NCBI GenBank assembly: GCA_020846745.1
Contig: JADLDI010000027.1
Coordinates: 1-32,943, forward strand
DNA from: Bryobacterales bacterium
GTDB taxonomy: Bacteria > Acidobacteriota > Terriglobia > Bryobacterales > Bryobacteraceae
DNA: 32,943 nucleotides
Direction: 5' to 3'
Below are positions 10,335 through 30,448 of this stretch, one piece after another. Under the pieces are notes generated by a model that was given only the letters and a program-made list of their open reading frames with translations, did no database searches and was not told where the DNA came from. Both the position numbers and the translations under genes were made by a program. The first letter of the stretch is position 1. Each line of letters starts with the position of its first letter.

Positions 10335-13300
10335 CTAAAACACGAACCGCGCCCCCAACTGTATCCATCGCGCATTCTGCGCCACGCTCGTGTACTGCCC
10401 GAAATCCGCCGCCGTGATGGTCCGCGATACATCCTGGAACGAAGTGTTGTTGAACAAGTTATAAAACTCCGCGCGAATCTGGAATCGCAGCCGCTCGGCC
10501 ACCGGAATGTTCTTGTAAATCGTCCAGTCGAAGTTCCGCTCCCCATTCAACCGGAACGTGTTACGCCCGAGGTTGCCGATGTTACCCAAGAAGGGCTGCG
10601 ACAGTCCCAGGCTGGCCGCGTAAGTCGATACCGCCTGCCCGTTTACTACCGCCGTCCCGAACGGTGCGCCGGCCGACCCCGCCGGACGCGGCTCGAAGCG
10701 CAGCGGACCCGCCACGTTTGGCCTCACCGACGTACCGCCGCCCAACACCGTGATTGGATCCGTAATCCCACGCCGCGGACCTGCCAACAGCGTCACCGGA
10801 AACCCCGACCGGAAACTGGTAATCCCCGCAAATCCCCAACCGCCCGCGACCGTTCGCAGCAGCCTGCTGGCAGAAGTCCGGAAGAACGGCAATTCGTAGC
10901 TGTGCGAGATCACCAACCGGTGCGTCAGGTCGAACTGCGACGGACCGCGGTTATTCCGGTTATTCCGCGGGTCCTGCTGGAACGACGAATCGTTGATCAG
11001 CACGCCCAACACATCGGAGTTGTCGTCAATCGACTTCGCCAGCGTGTAGTTCGCATTGAAGAAGTATCCGAACGCGAACCGCTTCTTCACCTCCAGTTGC
11101 GCCGAATGGTAGATCGAGTTCGCCGAGCTCTCGACATAGTTGACCGTGTTGTACCGGGGATCGATCCGGTTGCTGAAGCGGGTGGCCGTGCCCGATAGTC
11201 CGGCAAAGGCGTTTGTGAATTCGCTTAGCCGCGCGGCCTCATCTTCCAGACTCGCCGCCGGACGCACCGGGTTCGCGATCAAGTTGATTGGCCTGGCGCG
11301 CATCAAGTACGTGCCTTTCGTGCCCACGTACGACGCACTCCACACCACCCCGAACTGCTCCCGCTGCACGCCCAGGCTCCACTGCTGCACTTGCGGGTTG
11401 CGCAGATCGCGGGCGATCGCCGGGTTTACGCTGCCCCAATTCAGCGCGGTTGTGCTCAGCCGCCCCACTTGCGACGCCCACTCGCGTTGCACGGCCGCCG
11501 TGCCCGCCACCAGTTGCGCAAAACTGTTGCCGCCGGTGAACGCCGCCGCCCCGCTTAAACTGCCCGCGACGGCCAGGGGCGGCAGGAACCGCTGGTTGAT
11601 CACCGGGTTCAGAAAGATAAAGTCGTATGCAATGCCGTACCCGCCGCGCACTACCGTCCTTTGATCGCCGAAGGGGCTGTACGCGAACCCGATCCGCGGC
11701 CCCCAATTCGTGTTCGCGTTGTTCGCGGAACTGCTCAACTCGAGCAACCCCAGCGGACCCGCGCCGGCCGCCCCATACGCCTGCCTGTTATCCAGGTTTA
11801 AGTTCGACAGCCGACCGTTCGCTTCGGTCACGCCCCCCGCCCACTCCATGCGGAGCCCCAGGTTTACTGTCAGCCTGCGCGTCACCTTCCAGTCGTCCTG
11901 CACAAACGCAAATACGTTCTTCACGCGGTTGGCCCGAAACGAATCGCCGAAGTTCTGTACGTATACCGCCGGACGGCCCGCCGCGAACTCCGCCCAGTTC
12001 GTGAACGTGAATCCAGGCCGAATGTTCGCATCGGCATACGAATCGGCCTGCACGTAGTAATACTCGCCGCCGGCTTTGAACGTATGCCGCCCGCGCACAA
12101 ACGAGACGTTGTCGCTGAACTGGTAGGTCCGCTGGTCGCGGCCTTGCGGTAGCGCCGGCGATACGCCGATCCCGTTTATGGTTCCGTCCGCAAACGTCAG
12201 CCGCGGCCCGATCGGATAGGGCGTGTCGATTGCGAAGATTGGCGGATTCTGCCCAAAACCAAACCGGAACTCGTTCACCACGGAAGCGGCAATCACGCGC
12301 GTCATCGCCAGTGTCGCCTCGCGAGGCTTGTTGGTCGCGGTCGCCCCGAAACCGGGAATATTCGTATCCAGAAACGTCAAGCCGCTCGAAGCGTTTTCGC
12401 TCGAATAGATGCTGTATCGCGCCCACAGCGTGGTACGCGACCCCAAATTGAAGTCTCCGCGGACCGCGAATTGGTCCGCATTCGTGCGCGCCGGACCTTG
12501 CGTCTGCACCTGTCCCGTTGCACTCGTCGGGATCTTGTATTGGTTCATCAGCGCCCGCGCTGCCGGATCGGTAATCGCATCGATCTGCCCCGGCGCCGGC
12601 ACGCGCGCGATCCGCGTCGCGCCCAATCCCCTCTGCCGGAAGCCCTCGTAGGTCGTATGCCAGAACGCTTTGTTCTTGCCATTGAACAGCTTCGGCAGCA
12701 GCACCGGGCCGCCCAATTCCCACCCGAACGTATTCACGCGCGACACGCTGGCCTTACCGGTGGTATCGAAAAACGGCCGCGCGTTGAACTTGTCGTTCTG
12801 CAGATACTCGTACAACTCACCATGCAAATCGTTGGTCCCGTTCTTCGTGATGTACAGCACCTGCGACGACGAGTTCCGCCCATACTCGGCATTGAAGTTA
12901 TTCGTGATGACCTTCACTTCCTTGATCGCCGAGAAGTTCAGCGGACCGAGCAGTCCGCTTGTACCGGTCACGCTCACGTCGGTCGCCGTAATGCCATCCA
13001 CCACGATGTTGTTCCCACGCCCGCGCCCGCCGTTCACGTTGAAACTTCCCGACCCTAGAAACGGATTGTTCGCCGAAACCGGAGCGACGCCAGGTGCGGT
13101 TAGCGCCATCAGATTGACGTTGCGCCCCACCGGGATCTCCTGAATGGCCTGTCCCGTAATTGCCGTTTGCACTTGCGCATTTTCGACATCCACCGGCGCC
13201 GCCGCTCCGCTCACCGTCACCGTCTCGCTTACCTGCCCGACCTCCAAGGTCAGCGCCACCGAGGCCACCTCACCCGTCCGGACCTGCGCCTGCGCGATCG

Positions 13301-13559
13301 CTGCGCGGAACCCCGGCGCTTCGGCGCGCACCTCATAGTTGCCCACCTGCAGCAAGCCAAAGGCAACCGTTCCCGCCGCGTTGCTCAATTGGCTTCGTTC
13401 CAACTTTGTCTCGACGCTCGTCAGCGTGACCGTGGCGTTCGGTATCGCGCCACCGCTCGGATCCGTCAGTGTCCCGCGGAGTTCGCCGGTGATCTGGGCC
13501 GAGGCAACGCTCGCCAACACGACGAAAGGGAGGACGCGCAAGCTTTGATACATTTTCAT
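10335..13559 (-). CDS. Oar-like TonB-dependent outer-membrane receptor 1
   Basis: Starting at ATG 13557-13559 (an alternative ATG is two codons on) the protein has about 1074 residues; the longer open frame to 13691 adds a tail without signal-peptide logic. Residues 1-22 are a Sec signal ending ASVASAQ. A carboxypeptidase-regulatory-like domain follows (GELRGTLTDPSGGAIPNATVTL, then VGNYEVRAEAPGF). Next comes a plug-like region (IPVGRNVNLMAL, FNVNGGRGRGNNIVVDG, IKEVKVITNNFNAEYGR, ITKNGTNDLHGELYEYL), then a long beta-barrel ending in the aromatic GARFVF. Such receptors import large or complexed substrates, commonly glycans or peptides, using TonB energy. It is divergent from the MaoC gene, with 164 bases between starts. 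No Shine-Dalgarno is obvious. Substrate unknown. Confidence 0.92.
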   Translation of the reverse strand: MKMYQSLRVLPFVVLASVASAQITGELRGTLTDPSGGAIPNATVTLTSVETKLERSQLSNAAGTVAFGLLQVGNYEVRAEAPGFRAAIAQAQVRTGEVASVALTLEVGQVSETVTVSGAAAPVDVENAQVQTAITGQAIQEIPVGRNVNLMALTAPGVAPVSANNPFLGSGSFNVNGGRGRGNNIVVDGITATDVSVTGTSGLLGPLNFSAIKEVKVITNNFNAEYGRNSSSQVLYITKNGTNDLHGELYEYLQNDKFNARPFFDTTGKASVSRVNTFGWELGGPVLLPKLFNGKNKAFWHTTYEGFRQRGLGATRIARVPAPGQIDAITDPAARALMNQYKIPTSATGQVQTQGPARTNADQFAVRGDFNLGSRTTLWARYSIYSSENASSGLTFLDTNIPGFGATATNKPREATLAMTRVIAASVVNEFRFGFGQNPPIFAIDTPYPIGPRLTFADGTINGIGVSPALPQGRDQRTYQFSDNVSFVRGRHTFKAGGEYYYVQADSYADANIRPGFTFTNWAEFAAGRPAVYVQNFGDSFRANRVKNVFAFVQDDWKVTRRLTVNLGLRMEWAGGVTEANGRLSNLNLDNRQAYGAAGAGPLGLLELSSSANNANTNWGPRIGFAYSPFGDQRTVVRGGYGIAYDFIFLNPVINQRFLPPLAVAGSLSGAAAFTGGNSFAQLVAGTAAVQREWASQVGRLSTTALNWGSVNPAIARDLRNPQVQQWSLGVQREQFGVVWSASYVGTKGTYLMRARPINLIANPVRPAASLEDEAARLSEFTNAFAGLSGTATRFSNRIDPRYNTVNYVESSANSIYHSAQLEVKKRFAFGYFFNANYTLAKSIDDNSDVLGVLINDSSFQQDPRNNRNNRGPSQFDLTHRLVISHSYELPFFRTSASRLLRTVAGGWGFAGITSFRSGFPVTLLAGPRRGITDPITVLGGGTSVRPNVAGPLRFEPRPAGSAGAPFGTAVVNGQAVSTYAASLGLSQPFLGNIGNLGRNTFRLNGERNFDWTIYKNIPVAERLRFQIRAEFYNLFNNTSFQDVSRTITAADFGQYTSVAQNARWIQLGARFVF

Positions 13560-13723
13560 TTGGAGTGTGGAGTCGCTAAACCGTGAGGAAGCAACCCATG
13601 ATTCATTATGAAGCAAAACCAGACAAAATACCCCGCAAGTCTTGCAAGTGATAGTCCTGTAGTAACTTAGGGCGTACGCGCCACCCGACACTTGTCAGCA
13701 TGTCGCCTGCTATCATCGGGGCC

Positions 13724-20159: not shown

Positions 20160-20389
20160 AAGTAGGAGAGCGCGGTCAGGTCACCATTCCCAAAGACATC
20201 CGCGACCGCTTCGGTATCGGCCCCGACACGGAAGTGGAGTTCGCTGTCGAAGGCGGCCAGATCCTGCTTCGCAAACACGCTCCGGAACTCCCTCTACGCA
20301 AATGGAAAGGTCGTTGTGGTGCAGCTTTTCGGGAGGCAGGCTACAACGACGTTGATGATTACATTGACGATGTTCGAGGCAGACTGTGA
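20156..20389 (+). CDS. vapB: AbrB/MazE-type antitoxin of a VapBC module
   Basis: The 77-residue protein starts MKVGERGQVTIPKDIRDRFGI, the swapped-hairpin SpoVT-AbrB DNA-binding domain, then DTEVEFAVEGGQILLRK. The C-terminal third (GRCGAAFREAGYNDVDDYIDDVRG) is the acidic toxin-binding tail. It is expected to neutralise the PIN toxin and repress its own promoter with it. The stop overlaps the toxin start (GTGA, four bases). The inverted repeat at 20142-20159 includes its start codon. The symbol is given for the gene-pair role; the fold is AbrB-like. Confidence 0.88.
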   Translation: MKVGERGQVTIPKDIRDRFGIGPDTEVEFAVEGGQILLRKHAPELPLRKWKGRCGAAFREAGYNDVDDYIDDVRGRL

Positions 20390-20793
20390 TCTCCGCCCTC
20401 GACACAAACGTTTTGCTCGATATCCTCATCCCGAACGAACAATTCTTTGAGCGCTCGCTAGCGGCTATTCAACGCTCAGCTGCCGAAGGTTCACTAGTGG
20501 TTTGCGATCCGGTATATGCCGAGTTGTGTGCTCATTTCAGAACTCAAATCGAATGCGACCGGTTTTTCGAAGAAAACAGAATTGTAGTCGAACGCATTTC
20601 GCGGCAGGCGATGTGGGGCGCATCTGCCGCATGGCTCCAGTACCGGCGAGCCGGTGGCAAGCGCGATCGAATTCTTTCCGATTTCCTGATTGGTGCTCAT
20701 GCGCGCTGGCAGACCTCCAGGCTAATCACCCGCGACCGAGGCGCCTACCGCCAATACTTCAAAGATTTGGTTGTAACCGATCCAAGCGCATAA
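20386..20793 (+). CDS. vapC: PIN-domain ribonuclease toxin (VapC)
   Basis: A GTG start overlaps the antitoxin stop. The 135-residue PIN domain has the acidic active-site set: Asp6 in SALDTNVLLDIL, Glu46 in DPVYAELCAHF, Asp99 in ILSDFLIGAHA, and Asp117 in LITRDRGAYRQYF. VapC toxins are Mg-dependent RNases that cleave specific tRNAs or rRNA to slow growth. The operon is self-contained and its stop lies ten bases from the convergent stop of the YihY-like gene. The module appears intact. Confidence 0.92.
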   Translation: MISALDTNVLLDILIPNEQFFERSLAAIQRSAAEGSLVVCDPVYAELCAHFRTQIECDRFFEENRIVVERISRQAMWGASAAWLQYRRAGGKRDRILSDFLIGAHARWQTSRLITRDRGAYRQYFKDLVVTDPSA

Positions 20794-20803
20794 CAGCCCC
20801 CGT

Positions 20804-21643
20804 TTACCGCCGCCGCTCCACCGCATTGAACGCACACCCATAGCACGCAATAATCGCCAGCAAATACATCCACACCAGCAGCGCGATCACCGCCCCGATC
20901 GACCCGTAGAGCACGTTATACGACCCGATCTTCCTGACATACAAAGCAAAGAGCGACGTCGCCCCCAACCACAGCACCGTCGCCAGCCACGCCCCCGGCC
21001 ACACGCTGTGCCAATTCTGCCTACGGTTCGGACCCAGGTAGTACAGCAGTCCCGTCACCAGCACAATCGTCGCCAGCGCCACACTGTACCGCACGAAGTA
21101 TCCAAGTATCAGCAACCCGCCGGTCAACGGCTCCGCATCCGGATAATCGCGCAACCACCGGTTGATCGATTGTTCCGTCCGCGCGCCCAGCAGGATCAGT
21201 GTCGACGCGCCCACCGCCGGCAGCGCCGAGGTCACCACCAGCAGCGCCGCCATCAGCCGCTGCTTCAAAAACGGCCGCCCCGATGGAATGTGGTACAGCC
21301 GGTCGAACGCTTCCATCAGGCTCATCATCACGCCCGAAGCCGCATAGATCGCCAGCAGCGTCGCCGCGATCAGCAGCAGCACCGGCCGCTGTCCCGACGA
21401 CACGAACCTCTCCAGCACCAGCGGCTCCGTTCCCGGCGGTAGCACGCCCGTCAGAAACCGCGACAGCACCTTCAGCACCGGCGTCGCCCGCGCCTGCACC
21501 AGCAGCGTGGCCAAAGTCGTTAGCACCGGGAAGATCGCCAGAAAGCCCGAATACGACGCGCCCTTGCAGATCGACAGGCACCCGCGCCGGTAAAACAGCA
21601 CCGCCGCCTTCCCCATCGGCTCCAGCACCGGTCTCGGGCTCAT
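20804..21643 (-). CDS. YihY/BrkB family inner-membrane protein
   Basis: ATG 21641-21643 overlaps the stop of the preceding membrane-protein gene as ATGA, so the start is fixed by coupling; 279 residues. The N-terminal cytoplasmic part (YRRGCLSICKGASYSGFLAIFPVLTTLATLL) has the family's G-x-AY-x-x-FLAIFP-like motif, followed by about six membrane segments, including YGSIGAVIALLVWMYLLAII near the C-terminus. The family was once called RNase BN, a misassignment; a lipid or envelope transport role is suspected but unproven. Being last in a glycosylation operon, it may handle the glycolipid product. It ends NAVERRR. Confidence 0.88.
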   Translation of the reverse strand: MSPRPVLEPMGKAAVLFYRRGCLSICKGASYSGFLAIFPVLTTLATLLVQARATPVLKVLSRFLTGVLPPGTEPLVLERFVSSGQRPVLLLIAATLLAIYAASGVMMSLMEAFDRLYHIPSGRPFLKQRLMAALLVVTSALPAVGASTLILLGARTEQSINRWLRDYPDAEPLTGGLLILGYFVRYSVALATIVLVTGLLYYLGPNRRQNWHSVWPGAWLATVLWLGATSLFALYVRKIGSYNVLYGSIGAVIALLVWMYLLAIIACYGCAFNAVERRR

Positions 21644-23643
21644 GCGCGCCGCCGCCGGCCTCGATACAACGCCGTCAACGCCGCCGCCCACGCCGTCAAA
21701 CTGATCGCGGTGAACGCAACCTGCTCCAGTGGAGGCCGATACTCAAGCCGGATCTCGGTCATCTTCGCAGCCTTCGGCTTTAAGACGATGTGACCCAGGG
21801 TATTTGTTTCCACCGGCAGTTCCGCGCCATCCTGCCACGCGTGCCACCCCGGATGATAGGAAATCGCGATGTCCATCCAGTACTTCTCCGGCACTGCGGA
21901 CCGGATCGACACACTCGAATTGGACACGAACTTACATTCCGCCGTCGGCCGCCGCGGATCGTCGAAACCCTTCACCAACGGCTCCAGTAAATCCACTTGT
22001 AATAAGCCCGTCGGCCGCACCGCCGGCAACTCTTCCGGCAACACCAGGTGCGCCAGCGACCGGAACGGCAGCTTGTACACCTGTTCCGGTCCGTTCTCGT
22101 ACACCGGCTCCATTTGTTCCCGGAGCAGCCCGGCTTGCTGGATATCGCGCCAGTGCTCCGCCGAATCTTTCGTGTGTACCGCAAAGTACTCCACACCCCA
22201 CGCCCGTAACAGCCACGTCACATCGCGCACGCGCGTCTCCGCGGTCGAACCCTTCCCCCAAACCACATGCTCCAGAAACGCGAGTGGAACCCGGTTCTGC
22301 AACCCTGACTCGAATGTTCCGCCCAACTGCGGCACGTCGAACCATGAGTTCAACCGGAACCGCGTCCCGCCCGACACAAACACCCGCGCCGGCTTCCGCT
22401 GTGCCAGATAAGACGCCACCTGGAACTCCGGATGTCTCTCCCGCGGACTCGGCCGCAGCAGGATCCACGTCTTCTCCACATAGCTCCGGGCCTGTGGCAA
22501 CCCATGCTCCAGCATCAATACCAGCAGAGCGACAGCCACATCCCGCGGCCATCGCGGCCGCTGCAGCGACAACTGCCGTCCGAACTCCGCGAACAAGGCG
22601 AAGAAGAACATCTCCGCTTCAAGCGCATACCGCCGCGACTCCGGAATCGTCTCCACCCGCAGCCAGTAATGCCCTGACACTACCAGGAAGTAACCCAGGA
22701 ACGTCAGCATCAGGAAACAGACGAAATACTGCTTGGGATACCGCCAGAACACCAATCGCCCCAACGCCGTCAGCGCCGCCAGCGCGCCCAGCATCAGCCA
22801 CTGCCCCCATTGCATCTTGTACTGGAACGCATCCACCGGCCAGTTGAATAACGTGGTCCGGATAAATGTCGGCGTCAGCCAGAAACACGCCAGCAGATAC
22901 GCCAGCCCCGCGGCCAGCAACACCCGCCGGCCCAGAAATCCCGTCGACGGACCCGTCCCCACGCCCGTCACCAGCAGCGTCACCACACACCACGCCAGCC
23001 CGAGCGCGGCCACCCAGTTCGTCAACGTAATCGCCGCCAGCATCACCGCCGCCATAAACAGCGTTGAAAAGCGCCGGGTGATCGCCGCCCGCCAGCACGC
23101 CACAATCGCCAGCGGCAGCATCGCCAGCCCGGCATTATGCGGACCCTCCCCATACTTGATCAGCACCTGTATCCGCCACGGCACATACGTGATCCCGCGG
23201 TCGCGAAAAATGTCCGGATAGAGCAAATACGCGGGCGACAAAAACGTGTACGCAAACCCCGCGATGAACGCCCACGCCCTGTTCCGTGTGAAGTACAAAA
23301 CCATCAGGAACAGCGTCACCGGCGGCAGGCAAGCCAGCGTCACCGTCACCAGCCGGTAGATATGTTCCGGCTTCAAATGCGGAACAAGGTTGATCGCCAG
23401 CGCGCTCAGGTAAGGGATGCCTGGCAGATACCAGAACTGCGTCGGCATGCCGCCGTATTGCAGCGGATTCCACCCGAACGGATCCGGATGCTCGGAAATG
23501 AACACCGCCATCGACGCATAGCCGCCCTCGATCGAATCGCGATATTTCGACTCTCCCGGCAGAAACAGCGGCGCGTTCAGCGCCACGTTCAACAGAAAGA
23601 GCGCGAGCGCCAGCGCGACGGTTCGTAGCGGCCAGCGGGTCAT
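21640..23643 (-). CDS. Polytopic membrane protein, YfhO-like/GT-C type, paralogue 2
   Basis: ATG 23641-23643 overlaps the upstream stop as ATGA, giving 667 residues; the open frame further upstream is a shadow. About ten or more membrane segments run through the first about 420 residues. The first extracytoplasmic loop contains RDSIEGGYASMAV (SIE at 37-39), and YGEGPH occurs at 164-169; both align in position with paralogue 1. The C-terminal domain ends with IAISYHPGWHAWQDGAELPV and IRLEYRPP, the beta-rich tail typical of YfhO-like proteins. GT-C enzymes transfer sugars from polyprenyl phosphate donors outside the inner membrane. The acceptor is unknown. The membrane-protein family named PTPS-related is another possible database match. 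Confidence 0.8.
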   Translation of the reverse strand: MTRWPLRTVALALALFLLNVALNAPLFLPGESKYRDSIEGGYASMAVFISEHPDPFGWNPLQYGGMPTQFWYLPGIPYLSALAINLVPHLKPEHIYRLVTVTLACLPPVTLFLMVLYFTRNRAWAFIAGFAYTFLSPAYLLYPDIFRDRGITYVPWRIQVLIKYGEGPHNAGLAMLPLAIVACWRAAITRRFSTLFMAAVMLAAITLTNWVAALGLAWCVVTLLVTGVGTGPSTGFLGRRVLLAAGLAYLLACFWLTPTFIRTTLFNWPVDAFQYKMQWGQWLMLGALAALTALGRLVFWRYPKQYFVCFLMLTFLGYFLVVSGHYWLRVETIPESRRYALEAEMFFFALFAEFGRQLSLQRPRWPRDVAVALLVLMLEHGLPQARSYVEKTWILLRPSPRERHPEFQVASYLAQRKPARVFVSGGTRFRLNSWFDVPQLGGTFESGLQNRVPLAFLEHVVWGKGSTAETRVRDVTWLLRAWGVEYFAVHTKDSAEHWRDIQQAGLLREQMEPVYENGPEQVYKLPFRSLAHLVLPEELPAVRPTGLLQVDLLEPLVKGFDDPRRPTAECKFVSNSSVSIRSAVPEKYWMDIAISYHPGWHAWQDGAELPVETNTLGHIVLKPKAAKMTEIRLEYRPPLEQVAFTAISLTAWAAALTALYRGRRRRA

Positions 23644-25631
23644 GACAGGCGCCGGCGCCGCCGCAACTCGACCGCGGCGCCGGCATAGAACAACAGCGTC
23701 GCCACCGTCAGCGCCTGCCCCACGCGATTTTCGGGCGGTGTCTCGAACCGCAGCGTGATCTCCTGCGGTCCCGCCGGTGCATCCACCAGCATGAACCCCA
23801 TCGGATCGTACGATATCGGCAGCCGCTGCCCGCTCGCCGAATACGCCCGCCACGCCGGGTCGAACGATTCCAGCACTGTCACCGCCTGTCCCGCCCCGAG
23901 CGTCGTCTTCACACGCATTCCCTCCAGCCCCTCTCGCGTGAACTCGATCGGCGCATCCGGACCCTGCTCCATCGCCTTCGCGTACGCGTGTACCGTCTCC
24001 ATCGGCACGGCTCCGTCCTGGTGCGGCGCAAGGGCCATCACCTCACTGCGATTCACCACCCGCGCGATGTGGCGTTGCTTCCGCGGTATCTCAAAAATCC
24101 GGTTCCCCTTGCCGTCGTCATAAATCACCGGAATCCGGCCGTCATAGACGTGCGCGTTTGTCACGTCTTTATATACTTCCTCCGACCGTTGGTCGTGCAG
24201 CACAAACGCGTCCGTCCCCACCGCTTGCATCCACGCGATTACATCCGCCGCCGGCACCATATAGGCGACCGCGAAATATGCGCTCACCGAAATCATGTTC
24301 AGCGTGCCCTGCTCCGACCCGCCTCCCGTCTCCGGCAGGTCGTACCACGCGTTGTACCAGAACCGTAGCGACCCCATCGACAATACCCGTTGCCCCGGCA
24401 GGTTGTCATGTATGTACTTCGTCAGTTGATACTCGATCCGTTGATGATAATCGGCGGGAGCGGGGAAATACTGCCACGACCGTCGCACCCATCCCTTCAC
24501 CGGATAAATCGCCAGCACCACCAACCCGATCGCCAGCCACTTCGCCGCCACGCCGCGCTGCCACAGCGCGCCCAGCGCCACCGTTCCCACGATGATAAAG
24601 AAGCAATCGAACTCCGGCACCAGCCGCTCCGGCTCGCCCAACACCCGGAACCCGAAGTAGTAGTGTCCCAGCACCGTCAGCGTGAACACCGCAAACGTCC
24701 CCATCGCGAACACCGGCCATGCCCGCTCCGGCCGCCCCCGCGCCAGCCGCCAGCTCAACACCGCGAACACCACCAGCACGCCCGCCAGCAGATACGCCGA
24801 CCATGCATTGCCCGGCTGCGACACCAGCTTCATGTTCCGCAGTGTCACCCGCACATACGAGGGCACCAGCCAGAACGCTGTAAACCCATACGACAGCACT
24901 GCGAACACCGCCGCCCGCACAAACACGCGCCAGTCCTGCTTTTCATGCAGGTAAACCGCCCACGTCAGAATCGGAAACGTCAGCGCCAGCGCCGTCGCCC
25001 CGTAGAAATTGTTCGATACCGCCGCCGCGGCCGCCACCGCACCCAATAACAAAGGAACCGGCCGGCCCTTGCGCAATCCGATCCACGCGCCCGCAAACGC
25101 CAGCGGCAACAGCGCGAACGCCGTCATGTGCGGACCTTCCCCATAGCGCACCAGCACCCCCAACCGCACCGGAAAATTCCGCGACGATCCGTATTCCGCC
25201 CGAAAATGCTTCAAAAACAGCAGCGACGGCGACATGGTCAGCACGCCCAGCCCGGCGATGTACCCCAATAAGCGGTACCCGGACCCTACGCGCACAAACA
25301 CGTACGTCGCCACAATCCCCACCGCGAAGAAGAATCCCGTGTACCAGTGGTACGACCGTGCAGTCGACACGTCGAATGCCTTCGAAATCAGCGCCGTCCC
25401 ATACCGAAGCGCCGGTGGATAGATGTAATCGAACCGCGTCCCGCAATACCAGTTCGGCTGCCACTGCGGATGCGGCAGATTGTCGCGCAAGAAACGGCCG
25501 TCCGCGATAAAGGTCGATTCGATCGACCCCCAATTTGCGGAGTACTCTAACCGGAACCACGGCCAAAGCAGAAAGACGGTAAAAGCGAACAGTAGAACTG
25601 AGTCGACAACCCAGGTGCGCCCGTTACGCAT
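23640..25631 (-). CDS. Polytopic membrane protein, YfhO-like/GT-C type, paralogue 1
   Basis: The 663-residue protein starts at ATG 25629-25631, inside the last codons of the GT2 gene (8-base overlap). It has about a dozen membrane segments. The first loop reads NWGSIESTFIADGRFLRD (SIE at 36-38), a place where GT-C enzymes keep their catalytic acidic residues, and YGEGPH follows at 163-168. After about residue 440 there is a soluble domain. It includes MGSLRFWYNAWYDLPETGGGSEQG, and the end has SFDPAWRAYSASGQRLPI and ITLRFETPP, matching the YfhO-type tail. Likely an inner-membrane glycosyltransferase using a lipid-linked sugar, perhaps made by the adjacent GT2. Its donor and acceptor are not readable from sequence. 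Confidence 0.8.
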   Translation of the reverse strand: MRNGRTWVVDSVLLFAFTVFLLWPWFRLEYSANWGSIESTFIADGRFLRDNLPHPQWQPNWYCGTRFDYIYPPALRYGTALISKAFDVSTARSYHWYTGFFFAVGIVATYVFVRVGSGYRLLGYIAGLGVLTMSPSLLFLKHFRAEYGSSRNFPVRLGVLVRYGEGPHMTAFALLPLAFAGAWIGLRKGRPVPLLLGAVAAAAAVSNNFYGATALALTFPILTWAVYLHEKQDWRVFVRAAVFAVLSYGFTAFWLVPSYVRVTLRNMKLVSQPGNAWSAYLLAGVLVVFAVLSWRLARGRPERAWPVFAMGTFAVFTLTVLGHYYFGFRVLGEPERLVPEFDCFFIIVGTVALGALWQRGVAAKWLAIGLVVLAIYPVKGWVRRSWQYFPAPADYHQRIEYQLTKYIHDNLPGQRVLSMGSLRFWYNAWYDLPETGGGSEQGTLNMISVSAYFAVAYMVPAADVIAWMQAVGTDAFVLHDQRSEEVYKDVTNAHVYDGRIPVIYDDGKGNRIFEIPRKQRHIARVVNRSEVMALAPHQDGAVPMETVHAYAKAMEQGPDAPIEFTREGLEGMRVKTTLGAGQAVTVLESFDPAWRAYSASGQRLPISYDPMGFMLVDAPAGPQEITLRFETPPENRVGQALTVATLLFYAGAAVELRRRRRLS

Positions 25632-26409
25632 TCTTCGCCGGGTTGATGACCGCTTTCGAGTAGCGGCGCTCCAGAGATTGAAACTGCCGCTGCCGCCACA
25701 TCCCCGCGCGGTGCATCATGTACCGCGCCAACAGGGTCAGAATCGACAGCCCATACACCGAACTTTGAATAAACGATGCCGACGATGCCTGCGGAAAATA
25801 CCGCGTCGGCACCGGAACCTCGGCCACCCGCGCGCCTACTTCCACAAATTGCGCCATGATCTCCTGGTCGAAGATGAAATTGTCGGAGTTCGTCTCCAGG
25901 TTCACGGCCTCCAGTGTTTCCCGCCGGTACGCGCGATATCCCGTGTGATACTCCGCCAGCTTCAATCCGAACACCTTGTTTTCACACCACGTCAGAAACC
26001 GGTTTGAGATGTACTTCCACCACGGCATGCCCTGCCGCATCGGATCTCCGCCCAGCAACCGCGACCCCAGCACCACGTCCGCCTCGCCGTTCTCGAGCGG
26101 CGCGATTACCTGCGGCAGCAATGTCGGGTCGTACTGATAATCCGGGTGGACCATCACAATAATGTCCGCCCCGGCGCGCAACGCCTCCCGATAGCACGTC
26201 TTCTGATTGGCACCATATCCATAGTTGCGGTTGTGGACAAACAGATGCAGCCCCAGGTCCTTCGCGATCCGGATCGTCTCGTCAGACGACCCATCGTCCA
26301 CCACAATCACCAGGTCCACCACATCGTGCGGCAGCTCCGCATATGTCATGTGCAGCGTTTTGGCGGCGTTATACGCCGGCATCACCACCACCACCTTATG
26401 TTTCGACAT
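25624..26409 (-). CDS. GT2 family glycosyltransferase (polyprenyl-phosphate sugar synthase-like)
   Basis: The 261-residue protein starts at ATG 26407-26409 with GGAG seven bases upstream, three bases after the methyltransferase stop. The GT-A fold is clear: VVVVMPAYNAAKTL, VIVVDDGSSDET, NYGYGANQKTCYREAL, and a metal-binding motif in VMVHPDYQYDP (88-95). VLGSRLLGG, then YHTGYRAYRRETLE, complete the active site, as in dolichol-phosphate-mannose synthase relatives. It has no terminal membrane helices, so it would act at the inner leaflet, loading a sugar on a polyprenyl carrier. The two membrane proteins downstream, overlapped by eight bases, are natural users of such a donor. Sugar identity is unknown. 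Confidence 0.9.
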   Translation of the reverse strand: MSKHKVVVVMPAYNAAKTLHMTYAELPHDVVDLVIVVDDGSSDETIRIAKDLGLHLFVHNRNYGYGANQKTCYREALRAGADIIVMVHPDYQYDPTLLPQVIAPLENGEADVVLGSRLLGGDPMRQGMPWWKYISNRFLTWCENKVFGLKLAEYHTGYRAYRRETLEAVNLETNSDNFIFDQEIMAQFVEVGARVAEVPVPTRYFPQASSASFIQSSVYGLSILTLLARYMMHRAGMWRQRQFQSLERRYSKAVINPAKNA

Positions 26410-26412
26410 ACA

Positions 26413-27081
26413 CTATCTCCGCTGCGCCACAACCACAAACTGGTAAGCGAACAGTCGCTTCCACCAGCGGGCCAGTAAATAGCATATCGTTTCACCCGAT
26501 CGGACCAGTACCGAAGCCTGGGCGTCAGGAAACCGCAGCCCGATCGGGATCCCCGATGGCTGTACCGTCAGCCAGCCTAACCCGGCTTCCTCAAACAATC
26601 CTTGCCAGCTGTCGAATGTGTGGAAATGGATGTGTGTCCGGTCGAACAGTCCCTTGTCCTCCTTCGGGAAACGCCCCGAAAGCACCACCAGCCGGAAGTA
26701 GATATTGCCCGAATTGGGCAGCGACGCTACAATCACCCCGTCCGGCGCCAGCAGTGCCGCCAGTTGCCGCAATAACTCCTCCGGCCGCCGCACATGCTCC
26801 AGAATGTCGGCACAGATAATGGAATCGAATTTCTCGTCCACCGCCGGTAATCCCTCATCGAGATCCGCTTCAATCAGCCGCACGTTGGACGGAATCGAAG
26901 TCCACCCGCCCGGCCGCTCAATCCCCACTACCTCGTACCCGCGCTCCGCGAGAATTGCCCCCAGATAGCCGTTCCCACAGCCTACGTCCAGCACCTTCTT
27001 TGCGCTTCGTGTTTCTGAAAACAGCCGCAGCACCAGCGCGTGCGACGAATAGGGCGATTCCTTGAAGCTGTAGTGGCTCAA
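26413..27081 (-). CDS. Class I SAM-dependent methyltransferase
   Basis: The start appears to be TTG 27079-27081, since a stop codon lies just two codons upstream and the protein motif SHYSFKESPYSSHAL begins at once; 222 residues. The SAM-binding motif LDVGCGNGYLG is at 31-41, with GIERPG as the acidic strand end, IEADLDEGLP, and FDSIICADILEHVRRPEELL as motif II. This is the UbiG/Methyltransf_23 pattern seen with glycan operons. The C-terminal part (GWLTVQPSGIPIGLRFP and a hydrophobic YLLARWWKRLFAYQF) may touch the membrane. It heads the five-gene operon. The target could be a sugar or a lipid-linked glycan. Confidence 0.88.
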   Translation of the reverse strand: MSHYSFKESPYSSHALVLRLFSETRSAKKVLDVGCGNGYLGAILAERGYEVVGIERPGGWTSIPSNVRLIEADLDEGLPAVDEKFDSIICADILEHVRRPEELLRQLAALLAPDGVIVASLPNSGNIYFRLVVLSGRFPKEDKGLFDRTHIHFHTFDSWQGLFEEAGLGWLTVQPSGIPIGLRFPDAQASVLVRSGETICYLLARWWKRLFAYQFVVVAQRR

Positions 27082-27169
27082 ACCCTAGAGAATAGCCGAA
27101 CCCGAAACAGCCCGCGGTGCAACTTGCGCATTCTCCCCTTTTCAGGAAACAATATGGGCAACAATTAAC

Positions 27170-27190
27170 TCGCTCGTTCCAATTGAGCGA
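27170..27190. promoter_or_regulatory. Small hairpin in the leader of TonB-dependent receptor 2
   Basis: Arms tcgctc (27170-27175) and gagcga (27185-27190) enclose nine bases, directly before AGGAGG (27192-27197). It could be an operator or a leader structure affecting ribosome access. The 130-base divergent gap between the methyltransferase and receptor starts must hold both promoters; no convincing -35/-10 pair was found. Confidence 0.3.
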
Positions 27191-27211
27191 CAGGAGGAAA
27201 GGGGCTTTTCG

Positions 27212-30200
27212 ATGCTACGTTCGCTTGCCGTTTACGTTCTCTTTCTTTGGCCTGTGGCCGCTTCCGCCCAGGCTACTTTCGGAACCATTACGGGTACGGT
27301 GACAGACTCCACCGGCTCGGTGGTTCCCAAAACCGTCATTACGGTCACCAATGAAGGCACCAATTTGACCCGGACCGTTGCCACCGGCGAAGACGGCAAC
27401 TACTCCATCCCAAACCTGAACGCCGGCAACTACCGTGTGCAGGCCAAAGCGGCGGGTTTCAAAACGTCCACTACCCAGGGCATCGGCCTTGAAGCGCTGC
27501 GCACGGTTCGCGTGGACATCCGCCTCGAAGTCGGCGAAGTCGGCACCGAAGTCACCGTGCAGGGAACCGCGCCGGTGATTGAAACCGACACTGCTTCCAT
27601 TGCCGCTGTCCGCACCGGCAAAGACCTTAACGACCTTCCCCTCAATATCCGTTCCACCGTCAGCGGCACCGGCGATTCCGGCCTCTACCGCTACGTCTTC
27701 ATGACACCCACCGGCGGCCAGGGCGGCGGCTCGCGCTTCTCGCTCGGCGGAGCGCGCGGCAGCCAGAACTACTTCAACGTCGACGGCATCTCGTCAAACT
27801 CGCCGGCATTCGGCAACTCCATCGGACCCGCCGAACCCAGCTTCGAATCCATCCAGGAAGTCCGGTTCGAGATCGTCAACAACAAGGCCGAATTCGGCGA
27901 AGTGGCCAACATCACCGCCATCACCAAGAGCGGTACAAACGACATTCACGGCGCCTTGTTCTGGTATCACGAGAACTCCGCCCTCAACGCCCGGCCGTTC
28001 TTCGCCACCACCAAGGGCCAGAACATCCGCAACAACTTCGGCGCCTCCGTCGGCGGGCCCATCGCTCACAACAAGCTCTTCTACTTCGGTACGTTCGAGG
28101 GCGAGCGCCAGCGCCAGCCCGCAATCATTGCCCCCAACGTACCCACGCTCGCCATGCGCGCCGGCGACTTCTCCGCTGCCGGCGTCACCCTTCGCAACCC
28201 CTTCACCGGCCAGCCATTCCCTGGCAACGTCATTCCCTCTTCGCTTATTAACCAGGGCGCTCTCAGCTGGCAGAATCGCTTCTATCCCAACCCCAATTTC
28301 GGCCTCCCGAACTCCACCAACGGCAACTACCGCGAAACAGTGCCTCAACAATTGCGCCACGATCAGTTCGACCTTCGCGTCGACTACGCCATCCGCTCCA
28401 ATAACACGCTCTATGCACGCGTCAGCTACAAGCGCTCCGTGCCTCACGTGCTCGACGGCGGGCTTCCGGCGGAAACCACCGGCTATCGCATTCAAACCCG
28501 CATGGCTCGCCAGGTCGCCGTCTCCGATACCTGGACCATCAGCCCCCGCCTGATAAACGAACTCAAGCTGGGCTTCGCCCGCAACTTCAATCCGGCTCGC
28601 GGCGAATTGCTCGGCCAGCAGCTGGTCGATCTCCTCGGTATTCAGGGTCTCCAGCCCGCGCCCGGGGTCGAAAACGTTCCCACCCTGAACATCACGGGAT
28701 TTCAGACCGTAGCCCCCTTGGCGAAACAGGCGCCTGCGGAGAACACCTACCAGGTGGTCGACCAGCTTACCTACATTCGCGGCAAGCATAGCTTCAAAGG
28801 CGGCATCGAGTACCGCCCGCAGCAGTACAACGCTCCCGTCCCCGCCCAGTTTGGCTCCTACGGCTTCACCGGTTTCGCCACCGGCAACGCCTGGGCCGAC
28901 TTCCTCCTCGGCATACCGCAAACCACTTCGCGTAACTACGTCCGTCCCTCTCGCTACGCCCGCTTCTATCACCTCAGCTGGTTCGTCCAGGACGATTACA
29001 AGGTCTCCCAGAACTTCACGCTCAACTACGGTCTCCGCTGGGATTACAACCAGCCCGCTTACGACAAGCGGGACATCATCTTCAATGTCGACCCCGCCAA
29101 CGGCCGCCTCGTCGTTCCCAACCAGAGCGTCATCGACCAGTACGTCAACCCGCTCTTCCCAAAAACGATCCCCATCGTCACCGCCGCCACCGCCGGGTTT
29201 CCCGAGCGCACGCTACGCCGCGGCGACTTCAACAATTTTCAGCCTCGTGTCGGTTTCGCCTGGCGTCCCTTCGGCGGCACCAAAAACGTGATCCGCGGCG
29301 GATATGGTTTCTTCAACGACGACTTCACGGCCGACATCTTCTCCGCCCTCTACGGCGGGCCGTTCTCGCTCACCGAAAGCTTCGTCAATACCATCGCCGG
29401 CAACACTCCGGCGCTGACTCTTCAACGCCCGTTCCTCGGCGCCGGCACTACCGGCAATGTCGACGTTACCGGCCTCAGCCTGGCCCTCCGCAATCCCTAT
29501 GTGCAGCAGTGGAACCTGACCGTCGAGCGCGACCTTGGCGCATCCATCGGCCTCCGCCTGTCCTATGTCGGCACCAAGTCCACCAACCTGGTCTACGGCC
29601 GCAACGTTAACCAGCCGCCGCCCAGCACCATTCCCTTCGCCCAAGCTCGCCGTCCCTATCCGCTCTTCCGCAATATCGTCATGCGCGAGAACGGCGGCAA
29701 TCAGATCTATCACGCCTTGTCCACCCAACTCGAACGCAAGTGGTCCCGCGGGTTGTCGTTCATGGGCGCCTGGACCTGGGCCAAGAACCTCACCGATGTC
29801 GACGAGATCTCAGGCGTCGAGGCCGGCACCACCCTCGAAAACGCATTCGACCGCCGGCGCGAACGCGGCGACGCACAGTACACGCCGCGCCATCGATTCA
29901 TCTCGACGCTGATCTACGAACTCCCGGCCGGTAAGGGTAAACGGCTGCTCAACGGTGGCGGTCCGGTGGCGCTCTTCCTCGGCGGCTGGCAGTTGAGCGC
30001 ATCCTATATCGCGCAGACCGGCGAGTTCCTCACGCCTTCGTTCGCCGGCGTCGATCCATCCAACACCCAGACCGTCGGCGGCATTCCTGACCGCATCGGC
30101 AACGGCAACCTCCCCAGTGGACAGCGCACCATCGACCGCTGGTTCGACGTTTCCGCCTTCGCCGTCCCCCCCGCCAACTCCGGCCGCTTCGGCACTTCCG

Positions 30201-30448
30201 GCCGCGGTATCCTCGTTGGCCCCGGCCGTCAGATCGCTTCCGCCGCCATGTTCAAATCGTTTCCCATTCGGGAACGCATGTTCTTCCGGGTTCAGATCAG
30301 CTTCACAAATCTGTTCAACCACCCGAACTTCGATATCCCGGCTTTGAACATTTCCGCGACCAACAACGTGAGCACAATTCGCGCTACTCAAGGCCGCGAC
30401 CTCGCCGGACCCCGTAACGGCCTGATCGGCGCCCGCTTCGACTGGTAA
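27212..30448 (+). CDS. Oar-like TonB-dependent outer-membrane receptor 2
   Basis: The 1078-residue protein has AGGAGG then GGGG ahead of ATG 27212. Residues 1-20 are a signal peptide (VYVLFLWPVAASAQA). A carboxypeptidase-regulatory-like domain spans about 24-105 (GTITGTVTDSTGSVVPKTVITV, then NLNAGNYRVQAKAAGF). The plug region runs from about 115 (DLPLNIRSTVSG, FSLGGARGSQNYFNVDG, IQEVRFEIVNNKAEFGE, ITKSGTNDIHGALFWY), and a large barrel follows, ending GARFDW. It shares domain order with receptor 1 but is not a recent duplicate, as the plug and barrel differ widely. It is divergent from the glycosylation operon and convergent with the metallophosphoesterase (20-base gap). Substrate unknown. Confidence 0.92.
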   Translation: MLRSLAVYVLFLWPVAASAQATFGTITGTVTDSTGSVVPKTVITVTNEGTNLTRTVATGEDGNYSIPNLNAGNYRVQAKAAGFKTSTTQGIGLEALRTVRVDIRLEVGEVGTEVTVQGTAPVIETDTASIAAVRTGKDLNDLPLNIRSTVSGTGDSGLYRYVFMTPTGGQGGGSRFSLGGARGSQNYFNVDGISSNSPAFGNSIGPAEPSFESIQEVRFEIVNNKAEFGEVANITAITKSGTNDIHGALFWYHENSALNARPFFATTKGQNIRNNFGASVGGPIAHNKLFYFGTFEGERQRQPAIIAPNVPTLAMRAGDFSAAGVTLRNPFTGQPFPGNVIPSSLINQGALSWQNRFYPNPNFGLPNSTNGNYRETVPQQLRHDQFDLRVDYAIRSNNTLYARVSYKRSVPHVLDGGLPAETTGYRIQTRMARQVAVSDTWTISPRLINELKLGFARNFNPARGELLGQQLVDLLGIQGLQPAPGVENVPTLNITGFQTVAPLAKQAPAENTYQVVDQLTYIRGKHSFKGGIEYRPQQYNAPVPAQFGSYGFTGFATGNAWADFLLGIPQTTSRNYVRPSRYARFYHLSWFVQDDYKVSQNFTLNYGLRWDYNQPAYDKRDIIFNVDPANGRLVVPNQSVIDQYVNPLFPKTIPIVTAATAGFPERTLRRGDFNNFQPRVGFAWRPFGGTKNVIRGGYGFFNDDFTADIFSALYGGPFSLTESFVNTIAGNTPALTLQRPFLGAGTTGNVDVTGLSLALRNPYVQQWNLTVERDLGASIGLRLSYVGTKSTNLVYGRNVNQPPPSTIPFAQARRPYPLFRNIVMRENGGNQIYHALSTQLERKWSRGLSFMGAWTWAKNLTDVDEISGVEAGTTLENAFDRRRERGDAQYTPRHRFISTLIYELPAGKGKRLLNGGGPVALFLGGWQLSASYIAQTGEFLTPSFAGVDPSNTQTVGGIPDRIGNGNLPSGQRTIDRWFDVSAFAVPPANSGRFGTSGRGILVGPGRQIASAAMFKSFPIRERMFFRVQISFTNLFNHPNFDIPALNISATNNVSTIRATQGRDLAGPRNGLIGARFDW

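Follow-up and report, generated by a model that had tools for sequence, protein, structure and literature searches.

Glycosylation across a membrane by several components, namely a family 2 glycosyltransferase (GT2), a flippase, and a membrane glycosyltransferase of the C fold (GT-C), is a class of systems already described, at least in the accessible portions of the article concerned (PMC8035078). According to the available parts of two articles, CsbB/GtcA/YfhO is responsible in this way for the glycosylation of lipoteichoic acid in Bacillus subtilis (PMC8035078, PMC5836110). Here we compare with these systems a five-gene operon from a Bryobacterales bacterium (GenBank assembly GCA_020846745.1); the window analysed is the whole contig JADLDI010000027.1, of 32,943 nucleotides. 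Five open reading frames (ORFs), confirmed on the minus strand at 20804-27081, encode, in this order, a methyltransferase (MT), a GT2, two paralogous membrane proteins with a predicted GT-C fold (M1 and M2), and a YihY/BrkB-family membrane protein (YihY). We consider it fairly probable that they specify transmembrane glycosylation of the CsbB/YfhO type, in a Gram-negative variant whose GT-C transferase has two subunits. The initial annotation had spoken of an undescribed pathway; in the light of the class described, as far as the available text goes (PMC8035078), a pathway of this kind is in principle not new.

The operon resembles the B. subtilis system in that the gene of a GT-C membrane protein adjoins that of a GT2, which here would likely make a carrier-linked sugar, and in that the models of both M1 and M2 suggest a large extracellular part between the last two membrane helices, as YfhO is described to have in the accessible portions of the literature. 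It differs from it in harboring two paralogous GT-C proteins, sometimes fused, instead of one, in the methyltransferase coupled to the GT2, in the absence of a GtrA protein, in a GT2 with no predicted membrane helices, and in the host, a Gram-negative acidobacterium. To our knowledge, this host has no teichoic acids. Compared to STT3/AglB/PglB and DPY19, M1 and M2 (about 10% identity) lack a WWDYG-like motif and have an additional C-terminal beta domain followed by a final helix. Two related GT-C chains per complex occur, judging from the structure titles, in Pmt1-Pmt2 (6p25) and EmbA-EmbB (7bvc), to which M1-M2 would be comparable, with the difference that the pairing of M1 and M2 is deduced from gene fusions. 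Set against the systems already described, the operon stands out by its two paralogous GT-C proteins, by the coupling of a methyltransferase, and by a host that is Gram-negative. No paper on this operon was found in the open-licence literature, which is weak evidence since no query combined these genes.

Putative enzymes for the donor sugar and its transfer

The GT2 protein matches PF00535 (E 3.9e-20), and its best solved structure is the dolichol monophosphate mannose synthase 5mlz (E 1.2e-10). Since it resembles dolichyl- and polyprenyl-phosphate sugar synthases, it likely makes a polyprenyl-phosphate sugar. The best NCBIfam model is that of PpgS, a polyprenyl-phospho-N-acetylgalactosamine synthase (85.6 bits, E 3e-24); the equivalog cut-off being 370 bits, GT2 is not an orthologue by this measure and the assignment as PpgS was rejected. 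A crude hydropathy scan of GT2 revealed no hydrophobic segment or membrane helix. As for MT, it matches PF13489 (E 8.2e-23) and no specific NCBIfam family above the cut-off, so that it can be assigned to the class I methyltransferases only.

The paralogy of M1 and M2 proposed in the initial annotation extends over their full length: the comparison of the two families with hhalign (alignments of 76 M1 and 78 M2 sequences, from 120 listed per query) gave an E value of 6e-95 over 650 columns, with 24% identity. At E 0.001 or better, at least 1351 database matches were retrieved for M1 and at least 541 for M2 (7993 candidates were scored for each, and the two sets may overlap). Both proteins score below the Pfam gathering cut-offs, that is, 17.0 (M1) and 13.3 bits (M2) against YfhO (PF09586; cut-off 28.5) and 16.3 bits (M2) against PTPS_related (PF10131; cut-off 26.4). 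When 40 of the 76 M1 and 40 of the 78 M2 sequences were scanned, YfhO was matched at E 0.01 or better by 23 M1 and three M2 members (best 5.4e-8), and PTPS_related by 14 M2 members (best 7.1e-9). In agreement with the GT-C likeness suspected at the outset, the AlphaFold models of M1 and M2 (predicted local distance difference test, pLDDT, 95) both have the GT-C fold, STT3 and DPY19 being the closest structures. The source genome also harbors a third M1-like gene (L144; G000:C138:60829-62664), whose product is 28% identical to M1.

WWDYG is the signature of the STT3/PglB oligosaccharyltransferase family. It is present in none of the 76 M1 and none of the 78 M2 sequences, and M1 and M2 were therefore rejected as oligosaccharyltransferases. 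That they might still be oligosaccharyltransferase-like enzymes, moving a sugar or a glycan onto secreted proteins, is unlikely, even with STT3 among the closest folds.

The initial annotation would have been contradicted by a loss of the GT-C catalytic acids, and no such loss was observed. The candidate first-loop residue, assigned from the sequence and the helix position rather than by superposition on known active sites, is acidic in 75 of 76 M1 proteins (position 38: 71 Glu, four Asp, one Gln) and is Glu (E39) in all 78 M2 proteins. The Glu and the His of a YGEGPH motif are likewise invariant (E165 and H168 in the 76 M1; E166 and H169 in the 78 M2). Two further M1 residues, D44 and D68, are conserved in all 76 sequences; in M2 the former corresponds to Met in 71 of the 78 sequences and the latter to a variable position, the adjoining column (F70) containing Phe in 39 and Asp in 13 of the 78 sequences. 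Lacking counterparts of D44 and D68, M2 is probably not an enzyme equivalent to M1; this qualifies the initial view of both as GT-C transferases, although the predicted fold stands for both. Because M1 alone keeps D44 and D68, it is likely the main catalytic subunit, with M2 as its likely partner. The same substitutions would fit the stronger proposal, tentative yet to be taken seriously, that M2 is a non-catalytic partner, binding either the acceptor or M1, and not a second transferase; the invariance in M2 of E39 and of the Glu and His of YGEGPH, as for a working site, is at odds with it.

In the reading that we favor, GT2 would supply the polyprenyl-phosphate-linked sugar, MT would perhaps methylate it (a target suggested by the GT2-MT fusions reported below), a flippase, possibly a GtrA protein encoded elsewhere in the genome, would act next, and a complex of M1 and M2 would transfer the sugar, perhaps methylated, to an acceptor outside the inner membrane, the candidates being lipopolysaccharide (LPS), a glycolipid, a polysaccharide, or a protein. 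The complex is deduced from the natural fusions and from the almost constant presence of a close M1 in the genomes with a close M2. A much more specific version, according to which an obligate GT-C of M1 (catalytic) and M2 (acceptor-binding) would add an O-methylated sugar to LPS or another envelope lipid that YihY passes to or across the membrane, all within one transcription unit, appears improbable.

Gene order, natural fusions, and distribution

The junctions reported in the initial annotation were confirmed: three bases separate the MT stop from the GT2 start, GT2 and M1 overlap by eight bases (ATGCGTAA), and ATGA overlaps occur at both M1/M2 and M2/YihY. The M2 and YihY starts were placed at the ATG of these overlaps, the longest ORFs extending to 23853 and 21691, respectively.

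To describe the gene order in other organisms, named genomes were scanned with the M1 alignment, and the best 80 of 123 confirmed stretches were used as loci; loci with less than 800 bases of flank were excluded from the order counts, and several loci and genomes represent the same organisms, so that the counts are not independent. According to the record titles, 79 loci are from acidobacteria and one is from an Acidimicrobiia bacterium; in the latter (L008/L133) the operon is present and the YihY row is identical to that of a Bryobacteraceae genome (G121), so that the record is probably misnamed.

The expectation that the order is conserved in related genomes was borne out. Of 76 testable loci, 26 have GT2 as the gene immediately before M1, accompanied by MT in all 26, M2 lies immediately downstream of M1 in 43 of 75, and the arrangement MT-GT2-M1-M2 is intact in 18 of the 71 loci testable on both sides. 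Fifteen of the 80 loci have all five genes in order, YihY being at most 2.6 kb away and, in some cases, separated by an extra gene. The five-gene unit first described is thereby narrowed to a core, MT-GT2-M1-M2. Many loci, largely Solibacter-like, contain M1-M2 or extra M1/M2 copies without the GT2 of this operon. In three loci (L015, L063, and L074) the gene between M2 (or M1) and YihY resembles, from its start read by eye, a flavin adenine dinucleotide (FAD)-dependent glycerol-3-phosphate dehydrogenase.

Two kinds of fusion were detected. M1 and M2 form a single open frame of 1321-1390 amino acids in four of 80 loci (L019, L021, L073, and L083). GT2 and MT are fused in seven (L052, L059, L066, L070, L072, L078, and L080), the fusion being upstream of M1 in six and downstream, on the other strand, in the seventh. 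In the M1 tree (FastTree; group labels entered by hand, L068 omitted for its short best stretch), the M1-M2 fusion requires two changes of label, which well-supported branches make unavoidable, and the GT2-MT fusion requires one, in a single clade with a support of 96; hence the former probably arose twice and the latter once. Both M1 and M2 terminate with a helix followed by arginines, which would place the C-terminus of M1 and the N-terminus of M2 in the cytoplasm and make a direct fusion possible. The fixed protein ratios that the initial annotation expected for the whole operon find support for the M1-M2 pair only, through these natural fusions.

The fusions also bear on whether MT and YihY are mere passengers of a pathway consisting of GT2, M1, and M2 only. 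Methyltransferases of this class act on many substrates, MT lacks a specific family assignment, and the yihY-uvrB pair treated below occurs without the pathway; MT, however, adjoins GT2 wherever GT2 directly precedes M1 and is fused to it in the seven loci listed, and we regard this explanation as rather improbable.

We then considered the distribution of the genes in 150 genomes of the order, calling close those matches with E values of 1e-80 (M1), 1e-118 (GT2), and 1e-90 (M2) or better; the thresholds were set after the tables had been seen, and the counts of close genes, as well as those of yihY-uvrB neighbours, were tallied by hand. M1 is matched in 107 genomes at E 1e-5 and in 59 at E 1e-80. 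A close GT2 is present in 36 genomes, 30 of which also have a close M1, against 14.2 expected, and in 25 the two are side by side (the expected value and the chance figure given below for yihY ignore the relatedness of the genomes). M2 is found in 40 genomes, and 38 of these hold a close M1. In a sample of 297 genomes of the phylum, at E 1e-20, matches came only from the source genome and from one of the same family; for this reason, the MT-GT2-M1-M2 system looks lineage-restricted.

Several points weigh against the interpretation of the operon as a two-subunit glycosylation system. M1 and M2 have no close characterised relative and score, as stated above, below the Pfam thresholds of YfhO and PTPS_related, and a sequence-profile search of solved structures gave three chance-like rows for M1 (E 1.3 and above) and none for M2; the GT-C fold shared by the models would not in itself prove an activity. 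By Pfam, none of the five operon proteins is a GtrA (no search for Wzx was made). A directly upstream GT2 is missing, by the distance rule, from 50 of 76 loci, six of which have the GT2-MT fusion there. Moreover, GT2 is kept without a close M1 in six of 36 genomes (G006, G070, G091, G103, G107, and G135), and may thus serve other acceptors; the GT2 neighbours in three M1-less genomes (L164-L166), read by the sequence start only, gave no clear lead. Lastly, 21 of the 59 close-M1 genomes have no M2 at E 1e-90, which, together with the 38 of 40 M2 genomes that hold a close M1, would also fit the above-mentioned role of M2 as a non-catalytic partner.

YihY, uvrB, and candidates for the flippase

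The YihY protein matches PF03631 (E 1.1e-46; 160.1 bits, above the Pfam cut-off of 33.7), scores 62.4 bits against the NCBIfam yihY model (below its cut-off of 73.15), and gave no match in a profile search of solved structures. Given the overlap with M2, its gene is likely co-transcribed with the rest of the operon. From its last position the initial annotation had derived a possible role in moving the product. YihY would then be the missing transporter, either flipping the polyprenyl-phosphate sugar or carrying the glycosylated product, an explanation that we consider decidedly unlikely on the basis of the following control. It comprised 76 of the 150 genomes. M1 is close in 39 of them (out of 59; the 38 first in the list and, in addition, G041), has only a distant match in 17, and has no match in 20.

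In favor of the transporter role, 20 of the 39 close-M1 genomes have a yihY no more than 5 kb from M1 or M2, where chance would give, roughly, about 0.6% per genome, and four of the 17 distant-M1 genomes have one near the distant M1-like gene (G053, G056, G058, and G067). YihY-family proteins, however, are encoded by all 76 genomes, whether M1 is present or not, and in 12 of the 20 genomes without an M1 match (5 genera) yihY is immediately beside uvrB. Out of the 20 linked cases, 12 also adjoin uvrB; the other eight do not (4.7 kb away in G104, and without a uvrB match in the source genome), so that in these the link to M1/M2 is independent of uvrB. One of the 20 (G119) has a YihY of another branch, which counts against the transporter role, and in G110 YihY is upstream of the operon. 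The YihY tree, holding 11 of the 12 M1-less yihY-uvrB genomes (G040 left out), contains operon and uvrB-only rows intermixed in one clade, separate from the other YihY copies of the genome.

The pairing with uvrB in genomes lacking M1, together with this mixed clade, implies that the history of yihY is independent of that of M1/M2, and makes its last position poor evidence for a role in moving the product. The role proposed at first is therefore weakened, and the position of YihY was rejected as strong functional evidence after the uvrB control. In the simplest history, yihY and uvrB would be the older pair; in some members of the family the glycosylation genes would be located upstream of it, and in others uvrB would have become separated. 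The pair is not universal: no distant-M1 genome among the 17 has yihY adjoining uvrB (the two are 2.9 kb apart in G058), and neither does G041. In the source assembly (G000), uvrB gave no match at E 1e-100, compared to its presence in 75 of 76 genomes searched, which may be due to an assembly gap. In three genomes with a distant M1 (G053, G056, and G067; loci L134, L135, and L136), the distant M1/M2-like genes adjoin a yihY in the opposite orientation, with no uvrB beside it.

The source genome harbors elsewhere two GtrA-type genes, another point against YihY as the transporter; the flippase could be a GtrA protein encoded by one of these. Their neighbours (L157 and L158), read by the sequence start only, gave no clear lead. 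On the other side, YhjD of Escherichia coli presumably belongs to the YihY/BrkB family, although its likeness to the operon YihY concerns the same broad family only and stops short of orthology. In the available text of one article, YhjD is reported to take part in the transport of LPS, to co-purify with LptB, and to bind core-lipid A (PMC3219608), which would speak for a transporter. In the glycosylation pathway that we favor, YihY could conceivably be a helper.

Features of the locus and implications

The features of the operon are listed in Table 1. Upstream of it and divergent, at 27212-30448, there is a gene for a large outer-membrane beta-barrel-type protein with a carboxypeptidase-regulatory domain; MT is therefore the likely first gene of the operon. 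A second large protein of the beta-barrel type is encoded at 10335-13691 and resembles the former by eye only. Downstream, a PIN-domain gene (20386-20793) converges on the 3' end of the operon. No RNA family scored above threshold within 20300-27400. Pattern scans gave five promoter-like sites (2.2 expected), none of them on the minus strand ahead of MT, and six terminator-like sites (7.5 expected), neither outcome being informative.

Table 1. Genes of the operon and codons of selected M1 and M2 residues (positions in the window)
Feature	Coordinates	Strand	Remarks
MT, class I S-adenosylmethionine (SAM)-dependent methyltransferase, likely first gene	26413..27081	-	222 amino acids; TTG start; PF13489
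GT2, GT-A-type glycosyltransferase	25624..26409	-	261 amino acids; PF00535
M1, YfhO-like membrane protein, predicted GT-C fold	23640..25631	-	663 amino acids
M2, PTPS_related-like paralogue of M1, predicted GT-C fold	21640..23643	-	667 amino acids
YihY/BrkB-family membrane protein	20804..21643	-	279 amino acids; PF03631
M1 E38 codon, first-loop acidic residue, candidate catalytic	25518..25520	-	starts the first loop helix, 38-51 in the model
M1 D44 codon	25500..25502	-	invariant in M1; mostly Met in M2
M1 D68 codon	25428..25430	-	invariant in M1; variable in M2
M2 E39 codon, counterpart first-loop acidic residue	23527..23529	-	helix 39-51 in the model

The operon is real and well conserved within one lineage. 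The function of YihY should not be assigned from this neighbourhood alone. Acidobacteriota are described as abundant in soil, at least in the accessible portions of one article (PMC11561045); if the proposed reading is correct, one acidobacterial family would gain a testable pathway of envelope glycosylation, and M1-M2 would exemplify a GT-C transferase from bacteria that is made of two paralogous chains, for the structural study of which the natural M1-M2 fusions are ready constructs. Two protein families so far without a name, M1 and M2, would in this way gain a likely enzyme class.

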